DNA of 64,000 nt, taken from Bradyrhizobium lablabi. GTDB taxonomy: Bacteria > Pseudomonadota > Alphaproteobacteria > Rhizobiales > Xanthobacteraceae. The notes beneath the pieces were generated by a model, which ran no database searches, was not told the origin of the DNA, and saw nothing but the letters and a program-made list of their open reading frames with translations. The stretch is from assembly GCF_900141755.1 (NCBI RefSeq), contig NZ_LT670844.1:372001-436000 (forward strand), given 5' to 3'. Shown here in pieces: positions 5,014 to 14,737 of this stretch; position 1 is the stretch's first letter, and each line of letters begins with the position of its first letter. A program made the translations under genes and the position numbers.

Positions 5014-6516
5014 GTGAAGGGGCCGCGCAAACGCGCATCGAGCGTCGCGGTCATCGACATCGGCTCGAACTCGGTGCGTCTCGTCGTCTACGAATCGTTG
5101 ACGCGAAGCCTGGTCACGCTGTTCAACGAAAAAACCCTGTGCGGTCTCGGACGAGAGGTGCAGACCACCGGGCTATTGGCGCCCGACGCCGTCGCCAAGG
5201 CGTTGACGTCGCTGCGGCGGTTTCGCGCGCTGTGCAAAGTGATGAAAGTCGGCCGGGTCTACGCGATCGCCACCGCCGCGTGCCGCGATGCCACCAACGG
5301 CCCGGATTTCATTGCCAAGGCCGAACGCATCTGCGGCGTCAAAATAGAAATCCTCTCGGGTCCGCGCGAAGCGAAATTATCCGCCTTCGGCGTCATCTCC
5401 GGCATTCACAAGCCGGACGGGATCGTCGGCGATCTCGGCGGCGGTTCGCTGGAACTGGTCGACGTTCGCGGCAACCGGGTTCATAGCGGCGTCACGTTGC
5501 CGCTCGGAAGCCTCGCGCTGCAGGATCTGTCGCACAAATCCTTGAAGCGCGCCGAGCGCATCGTCAAAACCGAGCTTTCCGATGTTGCCCAGCTCTCGGC
5601 CGGCCGCGGCCGTGTGTTCTACGCGGTCGGTGGAACGTGGCGCGCGCTGGCGCGCATCCACATCATCCAGAGCGAATACCCGCTGCGAGTGATGCATGGC
5701 TATTCGATACCGGCCCAGGACGCACTCGATTTCGCGCAGCGCCTGCGGCGCCTGGTAACGGCGAATATGTTGGCCAATATCGAGGTCGTTGCCGATGCGC
5801 GGCGGCCGCTATTGGCCTACGCTGCCCTCGTTCTCGAACAAATCATCCGGGTCGCGAAGCCGAAAACCATTGTGTTTTCGACCTTCGGCGTACGTGAAGG
5901 CCTGCTCTACGAGAAGCTGCCGCCGGCCGAGCGCGCCAAGGACGGATTGTTTGGCGCCGTTCAAGAGCTCAACGGACTGTTGTCGCGATCCGCGCGTCAT
6001 GCCCAGGAATTGACGGAATGGACCGATCGCCTGGTGCGGGTCGTGCATTTGCGGGAAACCGACGAGGATCGCCGCCTGCGCCATGTCGCTTGCCTGTTGT
6101 CGGATATCGGCTGGCGGGTACATCCCGATCACCGCGGCGAGGAAACGCTCAGTCTCATCATCAATGGCAATTTCGGCTCGATCAGCCATCAAGGCCGGGC
6201 GTTTGTCGCATTGTCGGTGTTCTACCGTTATGCGGGCTTGAGCGAACAGAACGAACCGCCGGCTATCATTCGTGAGTTGGTGCTGCCGGCCATGATCGAG
6301 CGTGCGCGCCTGCTCGGCGCCGCGTTCCGCGTCGCCCATCTGATATCGGCGGCGCGGCCGGGCGTGTTGCCGGCGACCCACTTCCGAACCCAGGGCCGCA
6401 AGCTGATGCTGGTGTTCGAGCACCGGATGGTCGATATCGTCGCCGACCGCGTCGGCAGCCGCTTCAAGCAGCTGGCGCGGCTGGTCGGCCGCTCCGGGTC
6501 GATCGAAAGGCGCTAG
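5014..6516 (+). CDS. ppx: Ppx/GppA-family exopolyphosphatase
   Basis: 500 aa, GTG start preceded by AAGGGG. Removes terminal phosphates from polyphosphate, or pppGpp phosphate. The N-terminal ASKHA-fold ATPase signatures are VAVIDIGSNSVRLVVYE and GDLGGGSLEL; a C-terminal helical HD-like domain (LRHVACLLSDIGWRVHPDHR) follows. The last codons (VGRSGSIERR) are notable: 22 bp of this 3' end recur at 13754-13775, beyond a block of accessory DNA, which suggests that DNA was inserted here and that the gene's terminus was replaced or duplicated. Confidence 0.94.
   Translation: MKGPRKRASSVAVIDIGSNSVRLVVYESLTRSLVTLFNEKTLCGLGREVQTTGLLAPDAVAKALTSLRRFRALCKVMKVGRVYAIATAACRDATNGPDFIAKAERICGVKIEILSGPREAKLSAFGVISGIHKPDGIVGDLGGGSLELVDVRGNRVHSGVTLPLGSLALQDLSHKSLKRAERIVKTELSDVAQLSAGRGRVFYAVGGTWRALARIHIIQSEYPLRVMHGYSIPAQDALDFAQRLRRLVTANMLANIEVVADARRPLLAYAALVLEQIIRVAKPKTIVFSTFGVREGLLYEKLPPAERAKDGLFGAVQELNGLLSRSARHAQELTEWTDRLVRVVHLRETDEDRRLRHVACLLSDIGWRVHPDHRGEETLSLIINGNFGSISHQGRAFVALSVFYRYAGLSEQNEPPAIIRELVLPAMIERARLLGAAFRVAHLISAARPGVLPATHFRTQGRKLMLVFEHRMVDIVADRVGSRFKQLARLVGRSGSIERR
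6484..6505 (+). repeat. 22-bp direct repeat, left copy (inside ppx 3' end)
   Basis: The stretch starting GTCGGCCGCTCC and ending GGGTCGATCG is identical at 13754-13775. This copy encodes VGRSGSI near the ppx C-terminus. Together the copies bracket 7.2 kb of accessory DNA and look like the footprint of an insertion. No integrase gene is visible between them. Confidence 0.75.
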
Positions 6517-6581
6517 GCCAGTCCAGCGCAATTTTCTCTGATTCAATTTTCAAACAGCCACGATGCGCAAGGTTTTGACAT

Positions 6582-6671
6582 CGTCATTGCGAGCGCAGCG
6601 AAGCAATCCAGCTTTGGCGCCGCGAAACAGGAAGCTGGATTGCTTCGTCGCAAGTGCTCCTCGCAATGACG
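6582..6671. repeat. Palindromic intergenic repeat (REP-like)
   Basis: Outer arms CGTCATTGCGAG (6582-6593) and CTCGCAATGACG (6660-6671) are perfect inverted repeats. A second nested pair (GAAGCAATCCAGCT and AGCTGGATTGCTTC) lies inside, so the unit can fold into a long hairpin. This type of sequence is scattered in Bradyrhizobium-like genomes. Because it follows ppx it may also act as a 3'-end stabiliser or attenuator; that is inference. Confidence 0.75.
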
Positions 6672-6684
6672 ACTGGAAACAGTT

Positions 6685-7083
6685 TCGCATTCCCGCGGCG
6701 CAATGCGCCCGAGGTTTGCCTCATCTTTCACCCTCCTGGAAAGTAGAGGGCGCAGGGAAAGCCGGATGCGCGCTGCACCCGCGGTCTCGCGTGCAAAATG
6801 CAATATAGAAGACGCACACGAGCATACAGGTTCAGCGGAGGCAATCCGGCCTTCCCTGCACGATGGTTTACGGCTTACTTCGTGCTCTCCCCGGCGACCG
6901 GGCTCTTTTGCCACCGTCATCCGTGGAAGTGACTTCCACGAACTTGACACCAGCGTCGGGGTGTCAGGACCACACGACTTCGCCGTCCGCTTAAGCGCTG
7001 TTCGTCAATAGCGCTGCTGCGTCCACCGCATCCCGCCCCGCGTCCGTGACGATCGCGATACGCCCCTCGAGAGGAACGAGACG
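6685..7083. repeat. ~400-bp dispersed non-coding repeat, copy A
   Basis: No convincing gene is present. The stretch aligns end to end with 52007-52396: shared blocks include CCCGCGGCGC near the left edge, a block around CTTCGTGCTCTCCCCGGCGA, GTCAGGACCACACGACTTC, and GCGCTGTTCGTCAATAGCGC followed by GTCCACCGCATCCC. Both copies sit directly beside a palindromic repeat. The middle is more diverged than the right-hand 200 bp. Function unknown. Confidence 0.75.
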
Positions 7084-7309
7084 GCGCAGTTGTAAAAGTG
7101 TTTTGGGGCAAACGAGAACAAATTTCTTTTTGCAGGGAGGACTGGACAGGGCAAATCAGCTTGATCCGAAAGGAGAATTTTTGCTCAATTGAAATTGCTG
7201 TGAAAGCCGGAATTGAGGTCAAATGGCATCGCTGATTTGCCCGTCGGGCGATCGATGGCGCTACGTTCGCTCTTTCCCCGCTATGGCCGAACCGTGAGTT
7301 GAATTAAGT
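7084..7309. other. Intergenic stretch before the IS element
   Basis: About 225 bp without a supportable gene. It contains short facing pieces (CAAATCAGC near 7155 and GCTGATTTG near 7231) and ends in the left half of a small palindromic motif (AATTAAGTGCAC, 7302-7313) that is interrupted by the IS insertion. Confidence 0.5.
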
Positions 7310-7374
7310 GCACTGGACTGCACCCCTGGAACGAGACACGATAATTTCTGTGACAGTGCGGTTGCCATGATGCG

Positions 7375-8232
7375 TTATCGTGGTTTGTTTTGCGCGAACG
7401 CGGTTTCGAACTCAAGGGGCGATTGGTACCCGAGCGCCGAGTGCAACCGGTCCTTGTTGTAGACTTCTGCGATGAAGCTATTGATTCGGCGGCGGGCGTC
7501 ACTGAGGTCGGCGAAGGCCTTGCCGTCGATCTCTTCGGTCTTCAGCGTCTTCATGAAGCTCTCGGCCTTGGCGTTGTCGAAGGGATTGCCCGGTCTGCTC
7601 ATGCTGATGGTGATGTCGCGATCGGCCAGCCGTTGGCGATAGGCGATGGAGGCGTATTGCACCCCGCGATCGGAGTGATGGATCAGGCTGCCGGGTTGCG
7701 GCTTTCGGGCATCGATGGCTGTCTCCAGCGCGGCGATGGCGAGTGAGGCATCGAGCGTGTTCTCAAAAGCCCAGCCCACGGCCTTGCGCGAGAAGGCGTC
7801 GAGAATGACGGCGAGATAGGCGAAGGCTCTGGCGAGATGCACATAAGTGATGTCGGCGACCCAGATTTGATCAGGCGCTGACGGAACAAGGCCGCGCACC
7901 AGATTGGGCACGATGAGAAAGGCCGAGGGGCGGTCGGCTGGTGGCTTCAGGAACGGCGCCTTGCGCTGGGCCAGGAGATTGTCCTCGCGCATAAGCCGCT
8001 GAACTTTCTTGGCATTCACCACCATGCCCTGCCGTCTGAGGGCCGCTGTCACCCGCCTATAGCCATAGAAGCGGTGCTTGAGGCAAATGCGCTGGATAAC
8101 GTCGCGCAACTCGCACTCAGCCGCCTCACCGCTGCGTCCGGCAAGGTGCCGGTAATACGTCGCGCGCGGCAGGCCTGCGAGCCTGCACAGGTGCAGCACA
8201 TCGGCGTGCGAACCGGCCGCTTCTAGCGTCAT
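7375..8232 (-). CDS. IS3-family transposase OrfB (DDE integrase domain)
   Basis: 285 aa. The rve-type catalytic core shows all three acidic residues: Asp127 in VWVADITYV, Asp188 in HHSDRGVQY, and Glu224 in NAKAESFMKTLK, with the D-35-E spacing of the family. An N-terminal HTH_21-like segment (YGYRRVTAALRRQG) precedes it. The ATG overlaps the orfA stop codon as ATGA, so the two could be translationally coupled; the usual programmed -1 frameshift was not identified. Confidence 0.95.
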   Translation of the reverse strand: MTLEAAGSHADVLHLCRLAGLPRATYYRHLAGRSGEAAECELRDVIQRICLKHRFYGYRRVTAALRRQGMVVNAKKVQRLMREDNLLAQRKAPFLKPPADRPSAFLIVPNLVRGLVPSAPDQIWVADITYVHLARAFAYLAVILDAFSRKAVGWAFENTLDASLAIAALETAIDARKPQPGSLIHHSDRGVQYASIAYRQRLADRDITISMSRPGNPFDNAKAESFMKTLKTEEIDGKAFADLSDARRRINSFIAEVYNKDRLHSALGYQSPLEFETAFAQNKPR

Positions 8233-8630
8233 GGCTTCAATAACTTCGATGATGCGGATGCGGGTTTGCCTTGCGCTGCCGGCCGCTCCAAGGCGCGCAA
8301 GGCTTTTCGAAAAAAATCGATGTCCAGTTGCTGGCGGCCCACCAGCCGTTCAAGCTCGGCGATGCGCGCGCTCGCCTGGGCGAGCGCAGAGCGTTTTTTG
8401 TCATCCGCCTGTAGCGGCCTGAGCCTGCGGGGGCCAGGCTTGGGCCCGCGCTTGCGATTCAACCCCTCAGGCCCATGGGCCTTCCACGCCTTGATCCAGT
8501 CATGCAGAAGCTTGCGCGATATCCCAAGCTTGCGGGCCACAGGCAGAACGCCTTCGCCTCCTTCAGCAAGCTTGATCGCCTTCAATTTGTACGCCGTCGG
8601 AAACTGACGGATCTTTCCTTTTGCTGCCAC
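8229..8630 (-). CDS. IS3-family transposase OrfA (HTH protein)
   Basis: 133 aa. An N-terminal helix-turn-helix region (YKLKAIKLAEGG, then VARKLGISRKLLHDWIKAW) binds the IS ends. A C-terminal coiled-coil/leucine-zipper region (IAELERLVGRQQLDIDFFRKAL) serves oligomerisation, as in IS3-family OrfA proteins. It lies entirely within the inverted repeats, upstream of orfB on the minus strand and overlapping it by 4 nt. The reading frame is undamaged. Confidence 0.93.
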   Translation of the reverse strand: MAAKGKIRQFPTAYKLKAIKLAEGGEGVLPVARKLGISRKLLHDWIKAWKAHGPEGLNRKRGPKPGPRRLRPLQADDKKRSALAQASARIAELERLVGRQQLDIDFFRKALRALERPAAQGKPASASSKLLKP

Positions 8631-8697
8631 AGGTCATCCTCGAAATGCCTGTCACAGAAATTATCGTGTCTCGTTCCAGGGGTGCAGTCCAGCACCG

Positions 8698-9456
8698 TCA
8701 CCGTAATTCCCCAAAGAACTCCACCGCGCCCGTTTCGAGATTGTACATTGCGCCTGTGATCTTGATGGTACCCTTGGCCTCCAACTCCGCCAGGACGGGG
8801 CTGTCTTTCCGAATGTTCGCGACAGTCATCTCGACATTCTTCCGCGCGACAGCATCCACGAAGGCGTAGTTCTTCGCCGACCGGTCGCCTGTATAGGACG
8901 TCGCCTGCACCGCAGGTTTGATCTTAGCCAGCAATCCCGTAAGATTGCCCAGCTCTGCGTTGTCAATCGCCCCTTTGATCGCGCCACAGGCGGTGTGCCC
9001 CATGACGAGCACGACTTTGGCGCCGGCGAGTTTGCACGCGAACTCCAGGCTGCCCAGAATGTCGGCGCTCTCGACGTTGCCGGCGACCCGGCAGTTGAAG
9101 ATGTCGCCGATGCCGAGGTCCATGATGACCTCGGCCGGGGCGCGCGAGTCGATGCAGCTGAGTAGCGCCGCTGCGGGATATTGTCCCGAGGCGCTTGCCT
9201 TCTGTTCGCGAAGATAATTGCGTTCCTTCCTTTCGCCCTTCCGAAAGCGCGTGTTTCCGTTCTTCATTGCCTGGATGATTTGATCCGGCGTCAACTTGTC
9301 GCGTAGTTCCTTGGTAAGAGCGTCCGCGCGTGCCCGGTCCGCGAGGAAGAGGCTGCTCCCGCCAATTCCGACCGCAGCCGCTGCGCCCGTCATCTTGAGG
9401 AAATTCCGGCGGGCCAAACAATTGCAGTCCCGAGGATGTCCTGGCTTGTGGTGCAC
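8698..9456 (-). CDS. Tat-exported beta-class carbonic anhydrase
   Basis: 252 aa. Interconverts CO2 and bicarbonate. The zinc ligands and catalytic Asp-Arg dyad are visible: Cys101-x-Asp103-x-Arg105 (CIDSR) and His154-x2-Cys157 (HTAC). A twin-arginine signal (ARRNFLKMTGAAAAVG, ending near RARA) sends the folded enzyme to the periplasm. The stop codon lies inside the right half of the palindromic motif broken by the IS (8692-8708), so the last codons may be set by that repeat. It stands alone, without a bicarbonate transporter beside it. Confidence 0.92.
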   Translation of the reverse strand: MHHKPGHPRDCNCLARRNFLKMTGAAAAVGIGGSSLFLADRARADALTKELRDKLTPDQIIQAMKNGNTRFRKGERKERNYLREQKASASGQYPAAALLSCIDSRAPAEVIMDLGIGDIFNCRVAGNVESADILGSLEFACKLAGAKVVLVMGHTACGAIKGAIDNAELGNLTGLLAKIKPAVQATSYTGDRSAKNYAFVDAVARKNVEMTVANIRKDSPVLAELEAKGTIKITGAMYNLETGAVEFFGELR

Positions 9457-9729
9457 GGGCGATCTCCCCTTCCATAACTATATTTTTCAAGCAACGTGCC
9501 GCGAATCCTATTTTTGATCGGTGTTCGTGACAAGGTGTCACAAGCAAACGACGAGGCAAATCTATAATTCAGAATGGAGCTCGGCTGGCAAACCTCAACT
9601 AAGATGCAGAGGCTGCTTCCGCACGGGCACGGAAGGAGACATGGTCGGGCGCGTTGCAAAGCGCCGAAGTGCGCTGTTTGAGCAATGCTCGACAGGTCTA
9701 TAACCGGTTCGATAGACTGAAGAGGGGTT

Positions 9730-11052
9730 TTGTCCGACCTGAGCCCGACGATGTCTGAAACGATTATGCGACGAATATGGCAAGCCATAAAACGATGGCG
9801 CTGGCGGGCCCTGGCTTTGGCGGTGGCGATGCCCTTGGCAATCGCCGTGTTTAGCTGGTTCGGCGTCACCACCCCCGATCGGACAGCAGAGCAGTCATTC
9901 ATGTCCCGCGCCGAAGCTCGCCACCAAGGCGCGGTAACCGTTCGCGCGGCGGTTTTGACCGACGACGAAGGCCAGCGCTACTTCGGCGCGTCTCTGGCCG
10001 ACCATGGCATTCAGGCGATCTGGCTGGGCGTGGACAACGCCGGTGAATCCGAGCTGGAGTTTCTGCCGATCGTCACCGACCCGAACTACTTTTCGGAAGC
10101 GGAGGTGGAACAGCTTCTTCACGCATGGTGGCGAGGCAGCGCCAATGCGTCCACCAAGGCCGCCGTCGCGCAGGCTCCCATGCCGGATATCATCCCGCAG
10201 AGGCAAGCCGCGGCGGGCTTTGTCTTTACGCACCGTGAAGGTGGCTTGAAATTGTTTGGCGTGGGGTTCGAAACCGGCAGTGAGGAACTGCTGTTCAGGT
10301 TCGCCCTCCCGGTCCGCGGCGGGTCCTATGCGATCGAGAAAGTTGATTTCAGCAACATCTATCCGCCCGGATCGGTCGAGGATATCGATCTGGCGACGCT
10401 GCGCGAAAGGCTAGCGAAGCTACCGTGCTGCACCACCAATAAGAGCGGCACAGATAACGGTGATCCGCTCAATATCGTCGTCGTCGGGCACGGACTCGAC
10501 GCACTTTTCTCATTCATCGGGCGCGGATGGAGGCTCGACGAGCCGTTCGATCTTCACAGCGTTTATCGGACTATTCAAGCTTTCCTGTTCCGCAGCGAAT
10601 ATCTCAACGCACCGGTCAGCCCGCTGCATGTTTTCGGACGCCAGCAGGAAGTCGCATTGCAGAAGGCGCGCAACACCGTGAGCCTTCGCAATCATCTACG
10701 GCTGTGGCTCGCTCCGTTCACGGTCGGTGGGCAGCAGGTCTGGGTGGGCCAAATCAGCCGCGACATCGGCATCAAGCTGACCACGCAAGTCTGGTATCTG
10801 ACCACGCATCGGATTAGCCCGGCCGTCGACCAGGACCGCTTCTATCTGCTGCAGGACCTGATCATGTCCGGGGCCGTTTCGCGCTTCGGCTTTGTGCAGG
10901 GCGTTGGTGTATCGTCCACGCCAGATCCGCGCGTCAATCTCGGTGGAGACCCGTATCTGACCGATGGCCTTCGGCTCGTTCTGTTCCTCGGCACGCCGCG
11001 ACGGGCCTTCGATCAAATCGAGTTTCTCGACTGGGAGCATCCTCGCCCGTAG
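9730..11052 (+). CDS. LssY C-terminal-domain membrane protein
   Basis: About 440 aa from the TTG at 9730; ATGs at 9751 and 9766 are alternative starts, and the AGAGGGG at 9721-9727 is too close to the TTG to decide. One N-terminal transmembrane helix (ALALAVAMPLAIAVFSWFGV) anchors a large, presumably periplasmic part. The C-terminal half matches the LssY_C pattern: DPLNIVVVGHGLDALFSFIGRGW, PVSPLHVFGRQQEVALQKA, HLRLWLAPF, VGQISRDIGIK, FYLLQDLIMSGAV. In other proteins this domain is fused to DedA or PAP2 membrane parts; here it stands alone. Molecular function unknown. Confidence 0.75.
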   Translation: MSDLSPTMSETIMRRIWQAIKRWRWRALALAVAMPLAIAVFSWFGVTTPDRTAEQSFMSRAEARHQGAVTVRAAVLTDDEGQRYFGASLADHGIQAIWLGVDNAGESELEFLPIVTDPNYFSEAEVEQLLHAWWRGSANASTKAAVAQAPMPDIIPQRQAAAGFVFTHREGGLKLFGVGFETGSEELLFRFALPVRGGSYAIEKVDFSNIYPPGSVEDIDLATLRERLAKLPCCTTNKSGTDNGDPLNIVVVGHGLDALFSFIGRGWRLDEPFDLHSVYRTIQAFLFRSEYLNAPVSPLHVFGRQQEVALQKARNTVSLRNHLRLWLAPFTVGGQQVWVGQISRDIGIKLTTQVWYLTTHRISPAVDQDRFYLLQDLIMSGAVSRFGFVQGVGVSSTPDPRVNLGGDPYLTDGLRLVLFLGTPRRAFDQIEFLDWEHPRP

Positions 11053-11321
11053 AGCGACCTCGCCCGGTTCGGCTTCAGCGGGCACTGGTCGCGATCGTCG
11101 CGCGCGGTCCCGGCGGCGGCTCTCGCATCAGCGAACAAGTTCGGACCTGTCGTCTAGGCCAATTACGGTCACAGTGCACTCAATTCGGCTCCGCGGTTTC
11201 CCAGGACACCGTGCACCATCGCCCGCATCTTCAGCACCATGTGATCCAGCGCGGCAATGGCCGCGTGTGGCGCAAGTTGTAAGACTGCAAAGTTGCGATT
11301 TTAGCGCGTCCCACAGCAATT
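11053..11321. other. Intergenic region without a gene
   Basis: About 270 bp between the LssY-type gene and the start of the AraC inverted repeat. No coding frame is convincing. It holds one copy of the ~25-bp palindromic motif (11161-11185). Base composition drops from GC-rich to AT-rich towards 11320, marking a boundary between DNA of different origin. Confidence 0.6.
11161..11185. repeat. ~25-bp palindromic motif, copy 2
   Basis: AATTACGGTCACAGTGCACT followed by CAATT. It matches the motif at 13725-13750 and, in the other orientation, the motif reconstructed across the IS (7302-7313 plus 8692-8708). The three copies divide the accessory block into segments. It resembles REP-type palindromes; no REP-associated transposase gene is present. 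Confidence 0.65.
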
Positions 11322-11529
11322 TTTAATATTACGAGCAATTACAGATATTTCGAAGGATTTATCGGTATGTACATTGTGGAAACAGACCGAATCTTTGAGG
11401 GTAATTAGTTTGGGGCCGGACGATCAAATCGAGTGGCATCAGCGACATCCTGATGCACGTCATCCATTTTTAGTTAAACGGATGTCTTGGGCTTGGTTCT
11501 CTGCTGAGCTCGTTCGTATTCAACCAACG
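11322..11529 (+). repeat. Left arm of ~200-bp inverted repeat around the AraC gene
   Basis: Contains the presumed promoter region and the first ~50 codons of the AraC-type gene. The reverse complement of 12292-12491 aligns over the full length with roughly 15-17% mismatches and almost no gaps, from TTTTAATATT at the outer edge to TTCAACC at the inner edge. Confidence 0.85.
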
Positions 11530-12294
11530 GAATTGGGTTACCGAGTGAAGGGAGATGCAGCTTATTTAGCGCTGCATGATTTTGTTCGCTCCGATGGGGA
11601 GACGACTATGAACGGAGGGAGCCGTTCGACGCTTACTGACGTCCGAGATAAATTAACGTTCGTACCGATCGGATCTTCCGCCGAAGGTTGGAATCGTTTC
11701 AAAGGCCGGGTGTCGTCGGTCTTTGCAGTTCATCTCGCCCCTCCCAGATCAGATCACGACGCAAGCGATATCTCAAATATTCCTCCATCTTTGTATTTCG
11801 AAAATAACAATCTCAAAGCGACGCTCCTAAAACTCCAAAGCGTCTTAGATGGCTCGGGCATAGACGACCACGCGTATGCGCAGACGCTCGGGCTGTTGCT
11901 TTTGTGGGAACTACGGCACGCCGCTGACCCACAGTCCCCGCAACTGAAACCGCTACGCGGAGGTTTAACTGCATTTCAACTAAGGCGCATCAAAGAGTTT
12001 GTTGATGCTCACACTACGAAAGAAATCGGGATATCCGATCTAGCGAACTTGGTAGGACTGAGCCAGTTCCACTTAATTCGAGCGTTTAAAAATTCCGTTG
12101 GGCTTTCACCCTATCAGTACGTTCTGTCCGCGCGGATCAGCGCTGCAAAAGAGCTGTTGTCGAACAGCGATCGATCGATTGCCGACGTCGCGCTCGCGGT
12201 GGGATTTACCGATTCATCCCAACTGAACCGCGTATTTCTAAAATTGATTGGAGTTACGCCAACGGCCTTTCGGCGCGAGAATGGCTTGGGTTGA
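11374..12294 (+). CDS. AraC/XylS-family transcriptional regulator
   Basis: 306 aa from a TTG at 11374; a TTG at 11410, preceded at good distance by GAGGG, is an equally good start. The C-terminal third has the two-HTH AraC DNA-binding domain: LRRIKEFVDAHTTKEIGI, LANLVGLSQFHLIRAFKNSV, then SIADVALAVGFTDSSQLNRV and the closing GVTPTAFRR. The N-terminal part is a probable cupin-like sensing domain; the ligand is unknown. GC content is visibly lower than in the neighbours, pointing to transfer. The gene body lies between inverted copies of its own promoter and N-terminus, and the stop codon falls inside the right arm. Confidence 0.88.
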   Translation: MWKQTESLRVISLGPDDQIEWHQRHPDARHPFLVKRMSWAWFSAELVRIQPTELGYRVKGDAAYLALHDFVRSDGETTMNGGSRSTLTDVRDKLTFVPIGSSAEGWNRFKGRVSSVFAVHLAPPRSDHDASDISNIPPSLYFENNNLKATLLKLQSVLDGSGIDDHAYAQTLGLLLLWELRHAADPQSPQLKPLRGGLTAFQLRRIKEFVDAHTTKEIGISDLANLVGLSQFHLIRAFKNSVGLSPYQYVLSARISAAKELLSNSDRSIADVALAVGFTDSSQLNRVFLKLIGVTPTAFRRENGLG

Positions 12295-12491
12295 ACACGA
12301 ACAAACTCGGCAGAGAACCACGACCAGGACATCCGCTTAACTAGAAATGGATGGTGCGCATCAGGGTATCGTTGATGCAACTCGAGTTCAGCGTCCGGCC
12401 TCAAACTAATTCCCCTCAAAGATTCCTTCTTTTCGCAAAGTACATACGGATAGCTTCTTCGAAATACCAATAATTGCTCGGAATATTAAAA
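12292..12491 (-). pseudogene. Inverted partial copy of an AraC-type gene: promoter and N-terminus only
   Basis: On the minus strand this stretch encodes SLRGISLRPDAELELHQR, then HHPFLVKRMSWSWFSAEF. That segment is identical at 34 of 45 positions to the N-terminus of the adjacent AraC protein. Most base differences are silent or conservative, so the copy evolved as coding sequence. Homology stops exactly at the stop codon of the neighbouring gene; beyond it the frame runs into antisense sequence. The upstream, promoter-like part is conserved too. It is either the stump of a second, diverged paralogue or an alternative 5' module. Confidence 0.8.
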
Positions 12492-12692
12492 CTTGCCGTG
12501 AGACTGCGTTACTTGCGTCAAATAGCTTTTCTTGCGCCAAAATAATCCAACCGCTGATCGTCCTATTGTCGATCACAGTCCCGCATGGTGTCGTTCTGGC
12601 TCGATGGAATCCGCTGATTGCCAGCGTATCCCTGCTCCCCGCTAGTCACCGCGTTACCCGGCACCAGCCGGGTGAGCCGCAGAGGGCTCTTT
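12492..12692. other. Short intergenic stretch
   Basis: About 200 bp between the inverted AraC copy and the small membrane ORFs. No convincing gene. It repeats GGCGCAAG or similar (12533-12540 in reverse, compare 11269-11276), hinting that the inverted repeat may originally have been longer. Confidence 0.4.
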
Positions 12693-13013
12693 ATGCGCTA
12701 TTTGCCGAAGCGTTTCCGCTTATTCTTTTCCGACGTCATCGAGCGATACAGGAACCAGAGGGCGCGGAAACGTTCGGGCCCTCTGTGGCGCGCGCTGAGG
12801 AGATTCAGAGACCGGGGGGCGTGGAAGACAACGGTTGAAAAGAATAATAGCGGGCCGATCTACGTGCTGAAGATGACCGCGATGGCCGTGACGGTGCCGG
12901 CTATCTTTCTGTTGGCCGCTTATTTCTTCATAAAATGGGACATCAGTTGCTCGCGCCGCAATGCGGACGGCCCAAAGATCGCAAATACGATCTCAATCTC
13001 GGGCTGTCTTTAG
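12693..13013 (+). CDS. Small basic protein with one transmembrane helix, unknown
   Basis: 106 aa from the ATG at 12693, which has AGAGGG 6 nt upstream. The first ~65 residues are Arg-rich (RYLPKRFRLFFSDVIERYR, LWRALRRFRDRG); one transmembrane helix follows (MAVTVPAIFLLAAYFFIKW) and a short Cys-containing tail. No family recognised. Its stop codon touches the ATG of the next ORF (TAGATG), suggesting coupled translation. It could be a real lineage-specific gene or a decayed fragment. Confidence 0.45.
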   Translation: MRYLPKRFRLFFSDVIERYRNQRARKRSGPLWRALRRFRDRGAWKTTVEKNNSGPIYVLKMTAMAVTVPAIFLLAAYFFIKWDISCSRRNADGPKIANTISISGCL

Positions 13014-13226
13014 ATGCCGATCAACGAATGGCTTAGCGCCGCCGGAATAATGATGCCCTTCGGCATCGGGATTTATCTTCCGCTTCTCAGCAGCAAACCG
13101 AACTGGACTATCCGGGCGATTACCGGCGTGATGCTCGCCATCTCGCTTTGCAATCTCGCGGCAGTCGTCACGAATGAGGCAAGACGCAATTGCACGACGA
13201 TCCTTCATTGCGGCCTGAAGAAATAA
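13014..13226 (+). CDS. Small membrane protein with two helices, unknown
   Basis: 70 aa. Two hydrophobic segments (AGIMMPFGIGIYLPLL and ITGVMLAISLCNLAAVV) with a short positively charged link. It begins immediately after the stop codon of the preceding small ORF and lacks its own ribosome-binding site, so expression would depend on coupling. No family recognised. Confidence 0.4.
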   Translation: MPINEWLSAAGIMMPFGIGIYLPLLSSKPNWTIRAITGVMLAISLCNLAAVVTNEARRNCTTILHCGLKK

Positions 13227-13363
13227 CGGTCAAGCATGTATTGCTCTGGCTTTTTGCGGTGGCGCTGTGGCTTGTGCTGTTTCCGGTCTATTATGGGCCA
13301 GCGCTGCTTTACAGCTGGATCAGGGGACGCGAGGTCAGGGTGTGGATGTTTACGGGCTATTGA
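13190..13363 (+). CDS. Possible 57-aa single-helix membrane protein
   Basis: An open frame starting at a TTG (13190) inside the end of the previous ORF. It encodes LHDDPSLRPEEITVKHV, then a strong transmembrane helix (LLWLFAVALWLVLFPVYYG) and a short cytoplasmic-type tail with RGREVR. The hydrophobic, Trp/Tyr-framed helix looks like a real membrane protein, but the start is uncertain and no family is recognised. Confidence 0.3.
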   Translation: MHDDPSLRPEEITVKHVLLWLFAVALWLVLFPVYYGPALLYSWIRGREVRVWMFTGY

Positions 13364-13475
13364 ATTCTAACGCCCGAGATCGTGACGTCTTTACCACCCG
13401 TGCTATCATTAAATCTGTTTTTTCGCTTCGCGGCGCTTCAGCTCGCGCTCGACCGCTTCGCGGACCGGATCGCAT

Positions 13476-13750
13476 CTATATCGCGAATTTGCGCGCCGTT
13501 CCGTTGCCACCAGCGCCGCCGCCATAGGCGCCTCCGGAGACTGCCACGCCCGCGCCGCCGCTTGCCGTGGGGGTCGGGCCCGGCGCATCCGATCCATACA
13601 TGACATTTGCCGAGCCGCCACCAGAGCCGCCGCCAGCCGCGCCGTTGGCGCCGAGATAGGCTGCGGCTGCAGCGCCCGCGGCAGTTACGCTGCCCGTCCC
13701 GGAATAGGCGCCGGCACAGATCAGAATTACGGTGACAGTGCACCGTAATT
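13476..13750 (-). pseudogene. 3' fragment of a Gly/Ala/Ser-rich protein gene
   Basis: On the minus strand one frame encodes about 80 residues rich in Gly, Ala and Ser (AGAYSGTGSVTAAG, GGGSGGGSANVMYG, SGGAYGGGAGGNGT) up to a TAG at 13476-13478. No start codon or upstream coding part is present: the frame runs into the palindromic motif at 13725-13750 and then ppx-like sequence. It looks like the C-terminus of a surface or secreted glycine-rich protein cut off at the edge of the accessory block. Confidence 0.4.
13725..13750. repeat. ~25-bp palindromic motif, copy 3
   Basis: Arms AATTACGGTG and CACCGTAATT are a perfect 10-bp inverted repeat around the 6-nt loop ACAGTG. Related copies are at 11161-11185 and, split by the IS, at 7302-7313/8692-8708. 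It ends 3 nt before the duplicated ppx 3' end. Confidence 0.7.
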
Positions 13751-13753
13751 GTC

Positions 13754-13775
13754 GTCGGCCGCTCCGGGTCGATCG
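13754..13775 (+). repeat. 22-bp direct repeat, right copy (ppx 3'-end remnant)
   Basis: Identical to 6484-6505 in ppx. The frame continues after the repeat as IVRRWKRFQTK, so this could be the remnant of the original ppx C-terminus, left behind when the accessory block was inserted. No start or other coding context is present here. Confidence 0.75.
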
Positions 13776-13867
13776 TCAGGCGTTGGAAGCGTTTTCAAAC
13801 GAAGTGAAGACCGGTTCGCGCTAAGAAGACGCATCAAATCAAGAATCTGGAGCGTTTACCGGATCGA

Positions 13868-14737
13868 TTACCGCCGGTCGGTCGATTGAACCGCCCCGGC
13901 GGTTGGCGGCAGCGCGAGTTTTTCAAGCTGCTGCAATTTGCGCTTCCGCCAGATCGATCCAACGATCAGAACGACCGCCGCGCCTAGCAGCGAGGCGATG
14001 TACTCGACGAGATCGCCGTCCACGCTGAAATGCGGCGATACGCCGAACACCGCCGACGTCGCGTCGAGATTGAACACGATCTGGCCGTCGAGCAGTTGTT
14101 TCAGCAACGGCTGCACCGCCGGATCGGTCGCGATCACCTCGCCCGCGATCCAGCCGAGCAGCGTCGCGCCGAGCCAGACCAGAATCGGAAACCGGTCAAG
14201 CACCATCATGATCAAGGCGGCGCCGGCGACGATCATGGGAATGCTGACGGCAAGCCCGAGGATCAATAGCGGCAGCTGGCCGTTCGCGGCGGCTGCGACC
14301 GCGATCACGTTATCCAGGCTCATCACGATGTCGGCAATCACGACAATCCGGATCGCGTGCCAAAGGCTGGTGCCCGCGGTAACGTCGTCGCCCTCATCTT
14401 CGGGGACCAGCAGCCTGGCGGCGATCACCAACAGCGCCAGCCCGCCGACCAGTTTCAGATAGGGCAGCACCATCAGCTTGGCGACGATGCCGGTGAATGC
14501 GATCAGGAGCACCACCGCGATGCCGGCACCGATCACCATGCCCCACAGCCGCTGCCGCGGCGCGAGACCGCGGCAGGCCATCGCGATCACAAGCGCATTG
14601 TCGCCGGACAACAATACGTTGATCCAGATGATCTTGCCGACCGCCAGCCAGAAGGCCGGCGTCTGCATGTCGGTCTGGATTTGAGCGAAGAACGCGCCGG
14701 TATTTGCGGGATCAACGACCTGCAACAGCCAATTCAC
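13868..14737 (-). CDS. TerC-family integral membrane protein
   Basis: 289 aa with about seven to eight transmembrane helices. The conserved acidic signatures of the TerC family are present in the first half, WINVLLSGDNALVIAMACRG, and in the second, DIVMSLDNVIAVAAA; these Asp residues are thought to bind metal. Members of this family (YjbE/Alx-like) are linked to tellurite resistance or manganese export. The hydrophilic C-terminus is Arg/Lys-rich. It is divergent from nothing nearby and begins 57 nt after the ndk stop on the same strand, so the two may be co-transcribed. Confidence 0.92.
   Translation of the reverse strand: MNWLLQVVDPANTGAFFAQIQTDMQTPAFWLAVGKIIWINVLLSGDNALVIAMACRGLAPRQRLWGMVIGAGIAVVLLIAFTGIVAKLMVLPYLKLVGGLALLVIAARLLVPEDEGDDVTAGTSLWHAIRIVVIADIVMSLDNVIAVAAAANGQLPLLILGLAVSIPMIVAGAALIMMVLDRFPILVWLGATLLGWIAGEVIATDPAVQPLLKQLLDGQIVFNLDATSAVFGVSPHFSVDGDLVEYIASLLGAAVVLIVGSIWRKRKLQQLEKLALPPTAGAVQSTDRR

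Follow-up and report, generated by a model that had tools for sequence, protein, structure and literature searches.

The inverted repeat around an AraC-family regulator gene of Bradyrhizobium lablabi is probably a static fossil: two AraC paralogues would have lain tail to tail, and a deletion would have cut the right one down to its 5′ stump. The gene lies in a window of 64,000 nucleotides, positions 372001-436000 of a single-contig genome of 7.9 Mb (Table 1). The original prediction saw facing copies of its leader and N-terminus on either side of the gene body, and proposed either a switchable regulator or the fossil of two inverted paralogues. The evidence favors the latter: homology of the stump runs past the limit of the left arm, and the arms are not each other's closest copies.

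Table 1. Features of the AraC module and its surroundings (window coordinates)
Feature	Position	Strand	Basis
AraC-family regulator gene, apparently intact	11374..12294	+	ORF, Pfam domains, dN/dS
AraC gene leader, without the distal one of two CGCAAG-type words found in other copies	11268..11409	+	
GGTTGAA, overlap of two homologies, holding the TGA stop (12292-12294)	12289..12295	.	
5′ stump of a second AraC-family gene, upstream region and ~40 codons from TTG 12404	12289..12608	-	homology, alignment
~7.35 kb block holding the AraC module, absent from relative G015	6517..13862	.	collinearity with relatives

The facing arms and the genes they belong to

The inverted repeat is confirmed, at a level far beyond chance. 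Local alignment of 11302-11525 with 12511-12289, in inverse orientation, gives 185 identical columns of 225 (82%) and a score of 244, where 200 dinucleotide shuffles of the left arm averaged 18.8 and reached 26 at most; a second method returns the same facing repeat as 11308-11382/12430-12504 (81%) and 11381-11534/12280-12433 (82%). The arms had been placed at 11322-11529 and 12292-12491 with 15-17% base differences; both methods recover the repeat, and the divergence is nearer 18%. They were rightly described as almost free of gaps: three of the 225 columns are gaps, all within the leader, and the coding part aligns without any. Because of this, a flip would indeed join the body in frame to the other N-terminus, as foreseen; the same outcome is expected wherever gap-free arms of an inverted repeat span the 5′ end of a gene, so it is not evidence for a switch. 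The longest exact word common to both arms is 13 bases, and at 82% identity the arms are not the near-identical, recombinable repeats of a phase-variable module.

The left gene is a complete ORF, assigned to the AraC family by its HTH_18 domain (Pfam, E 1.1e-22) and carrying HTH_AraC as well. Judged by eye, its start is likely the TTG at 11410, preceded by GAGGG. Compared with the copy at a second locus of the same genome (4320598-4321619, 88% DNA identity) it has a dN/dS of 0.38, and would seem to be an ordinary regulator under mild constraint. Its leader is without an upstream stretch present in other copies: homology to relatives starts at about 11268, so that the distal CGCAAG-type word is missing. 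The right arm holds GGCGCAAG and GACGCAAG, 19 bases apart; the left arm keeps one of these words.

Aligned on the minus strand with the second locus and with relatives, the right arm resolves into an upstream region, a leader and the first 40 or so codons of a gene. Its homology reaches 12602 against the second locus and 12608 against relative G027, while that of the left arm starts at 11268 in both comparisons; some 80-90 bases of upstream homology are absent from the left arm. As it extends past the left arm's limit, the likeliest reading of the right arm is the 5′ end of a separate gene copy; like a truncated paralogue, it matches a full gene elsewhere over the 5′ part and breaks off inside the coding region. 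Its leader is ~25 bases short relative to other copies. On the right side the N-terminal frame stays open for 40 codons and has a dN/dS of 0.21 against the left one (few sites); the low ratio counts against a fossil, but would also fit constraint that acted before truncation. Counted by synonymous changes, G027 is the closest copy to the right arm (5 of ~27 sites, dN/dS 1.21), a closeness that does not fit the fossil reading and that we would take as noise.

The two homologies meet in a short overlap. The gene end can be matched to G089 and G063 as far as 12295, and the arms match each other from 12289 on; the seven bases in common, GGTTGAA, contain the stop codon, and the reverse complement TTCAACC is found in the N-terminal codons of the left arm (11519-11525), of G156 and of G069. 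The observation that the TGA lies within the inner edge of the repeat was thus accurate, and the coincidence is accounted for by this overlap, which fits a microhomology deletion of the 3′ part of a second gene. With frames read by eye, G027, G089 and G063 stop at the same codon; the frame continues past this position in the second-locus gene and in a copy on a B. japonicum plasmid, and G156 and G069 stop earlier. Since the gene end varies among copies, the TGA may derive from either partner.

Copies in the genome and the genus

Comparison with the other copies bears directly on the question of exchange between the arms. Identity to the left arm is 87.6% for the second-locus gene (225 columns), 83.5% for G156 and 80.8% for the right arm; over the coding part of the left arm, G069 reaches 88.1% (126 columns), marginally above the 87.6% for the second locus. 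Between the right arm and the second-locus gene the figure is 83.0%. The arm tree places the right arm among second-locus copies (support 0.82), and another second-locus copy clusters with the left arm (0.61); node support ranges from 0.11 to 0.97, and the weak nodes count against the fossil reading. The arms are not each other's closest copies, and appear not to have been homogenized. Exchange would be expected to keep the two arms of a repeat similar; that the left arm is closer to another locus therefore disfavors a switch. The gene body likewise has its closest match in the second-locus gene (89.4%), followed narrowly by G069 (88.3%, gene and body together), so there is no sign that N-termini have been swapped.

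An AraC match was found in 20 of 265 genus genomes, the source genome included, from a table showing two scored candidates per genome, so that distant extra copies may be missed. Wider loci were taken from 15 of the other 19; G161, G234, G250 and G281, with matches of 55-282 bases, were left out of this comparison. Seventeen loci, 16 of them from these 15 relatives, were compared each with itself, a procedure that would reveal copies adjoining the gene. Facing arms, in either direction, occur at none of the 16 relative loci, three of which (G087, G143 and G072) end at contig ends. The presumed ancestor, an intact facing pair, was not found at the same 16 loci or in the surroundings of the B. 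japonicum plasmid copy. Nor did the 16 loci include a relative with a full second AraC gene at this spot, the case named at the outset as telling against a switch; for this reason the origin of the stump is something that we infer.

A scan of named genomes with the AraC proteins gave five loci, four of them in Bradyrhizobium; named relatives matched in this way are B. barranii subsp. apii 1S5, B. elkanii WSM2783, Bradyrhizobium sp. URHD0069 and B. diazoefficiens SZCCT0449. Broken copies are present in several species: G156 has the gene in two frames, in G069 a transposase gene separates the leader from the coding part, G089 and G063 have it in pieces and G028 retains 140 bases only. G089 also carries (L093:5185-5742) an inverted 123-base piece matching 11740-11862, which lies beside a truncated body and not between arms. 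Upstream of the second-locus gene, near a gene of the Wzy_C type (O-antigen ligase-like), are two isolated AraC 5′ ends in direct orientation (L027:5494-6145). With isolated 5′ pieces at the second locus as well, leftover pieces of this kind are seen more than once. The B. japonicum plasmid copy encodes a protein 77.6% identical and has a glycosyltransferase and an acyltransferase gene nearby, so that two copies have polysaccharide-type genes in their neighborhood; Pfam scans of the longer ORFs in the block around the window's module recognized no polysaccharide-type gene, and an ORF beside the G156 gene, considered as a chain-length determinant, was dropped as it had no Pfam hit.

The surrounding block and the search for a recombinase

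In G015 the window is collinear up to 6516 and again from 13863, with 26 bases between; the AraC module therefore sits inside a block of ~7.35 kb. G003 has the positions matching 6516 and 14108 ~224 bases apart, and lacks the block by this coarser match; in G005 the interval from 6515 to 14077 is taken up by ~8.9 kb that does not resemble the block of the window. Besides the AraC module, the block contains an IS3-type element, a carbonic anhydrase and an LssY_C protein, the last two found together also in G084, a genome outside the 20 with an AraC match. The Pfam scan of nine more, longer ORFs from this block matched only a transposase-type helix-turn-helix, in the partner ORF of the IS3 element. 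This element (7302-8709; rve, HTH_21) has two further genome copies given as 100% identical, which suggests recent activity. The stretch 6565-7249 belongs to a dispersed repeat family of several hundred bases, with at least 36 other genome places of at least 360 bases at 75-87% (40 of 321 candidates scored). A short repeat of ~66 bases lies at 13788-13853; 12520-13860 has some match in 246 of 257 genus genomes, and, among the matches listed, those in other genomes fall on or around the short repeat.

The IS3-type transposase is the sole recombinase-like gene seen in the block. No recombinase had been noticed adjacent to the module; the whole 64 kb window contains neither a serine recombinase (Resolvase, PF00239) nor a tyrosine integrase (Phage_integrase, PF00589); the genome has nine and ten matching places elsewhere, respectively. 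A cognate recombinase is thus lacking nearby, within the window, and a distant one is possible.

Origin of the arrangement

The likeliest course of events would begin with two diverged copies of one AraC-family gene coming to lie tail to tail. Deletion would then have joined two GGTTGAA words, one at the stop codon of the left gene and the other antisense to the Val-Gln-Pro codons of the right gene, with the loss of the intervening space and of some six sevenths of the coding part of the right gene. The left gene would have come through apparently intact, followed from its stop codon on by the inverted 5′ stump of the other. Both the tail-to-tail ancestor and the single deletion are steps that we infer.

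A different account supposes that the stump was never a full gene here, and came ready-made, by rearrangement or with the 7.35 kb block. The isolated 5′ pieces at the second locus and the mosaic character of the insert speak for it; it needs an extra step, where a single deletion accounts for the junction, and we regard it as possible but unlikely. Local fold-back copying of the left arm would dispense with a second full gene altogether, and would explain why only a 5′ piece is present and why its junction shows microhomology. It is distinctly improbable, as the identities and the tree do not make the right arm the left arm's closest relative, and as the right arm carries the extra upstream homology that is missing from the left arm. 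The leader was also considered as a mobile element and rejected: its matches in this genome are only at the two AraC loci.

The switchable regulator, in which exchange between the arms flips the body onto the other leader and N-terminus, is permitted by geometry and reading frame, and both N-termini are open; if real, an exchange of N-termini of this kind would be unusual for an AraC regulator. Homologous recombination needs a minimum of ~20-30 bases, and the longest exact word here is short for it. The arms are diverged and not homogenized, both leaders have pieces missing, the left arm is closer to a copy elsewhere, facing arms are absent from the 16 relative loci compared and the recombinase searches of the window were negative. 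On these grounds active inversion was rejected, and this half of the original prediction is scarcely credible. A residual function has a very slim chance: the stump's leader and 40-codon frame might yield a short peptide or an antisense transcript, overlapping the end of the AraC gene and tuning it, or a rare inversion might still swap the N-termini. The fossil of facing paralogues carries a caution, since deletion between such genes can leave a switch-like inverted repeat covering promoter region, N-terminus and even stop codon; what tells fossil from designed switch is the divergence of the arms, the other copies and the sequence of the junction.

No comparable AraC module was evident among the titles of a literature search. 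Phase-variable invertible modules include those of the fim switch, hsdS and shufflon type, which the present arrangement resembles in having facing repeats over promoter region and N-terminus around a body; it differs in that the arms are 82% identical, the window has no invertase-type gene and no alternative orientation was seen. The closer likeness is to a truncated AraC-family (HTH_18) paralogue remnant, with which it shares 5′ homology, an abrupt end in the coding region, microhomology at the junction and missing leader bases. It departs from such a remnant in one respect: an apparently intact paralogue faces the stump, tail to tail, and the pair so imitates an inverted-repeat switch.
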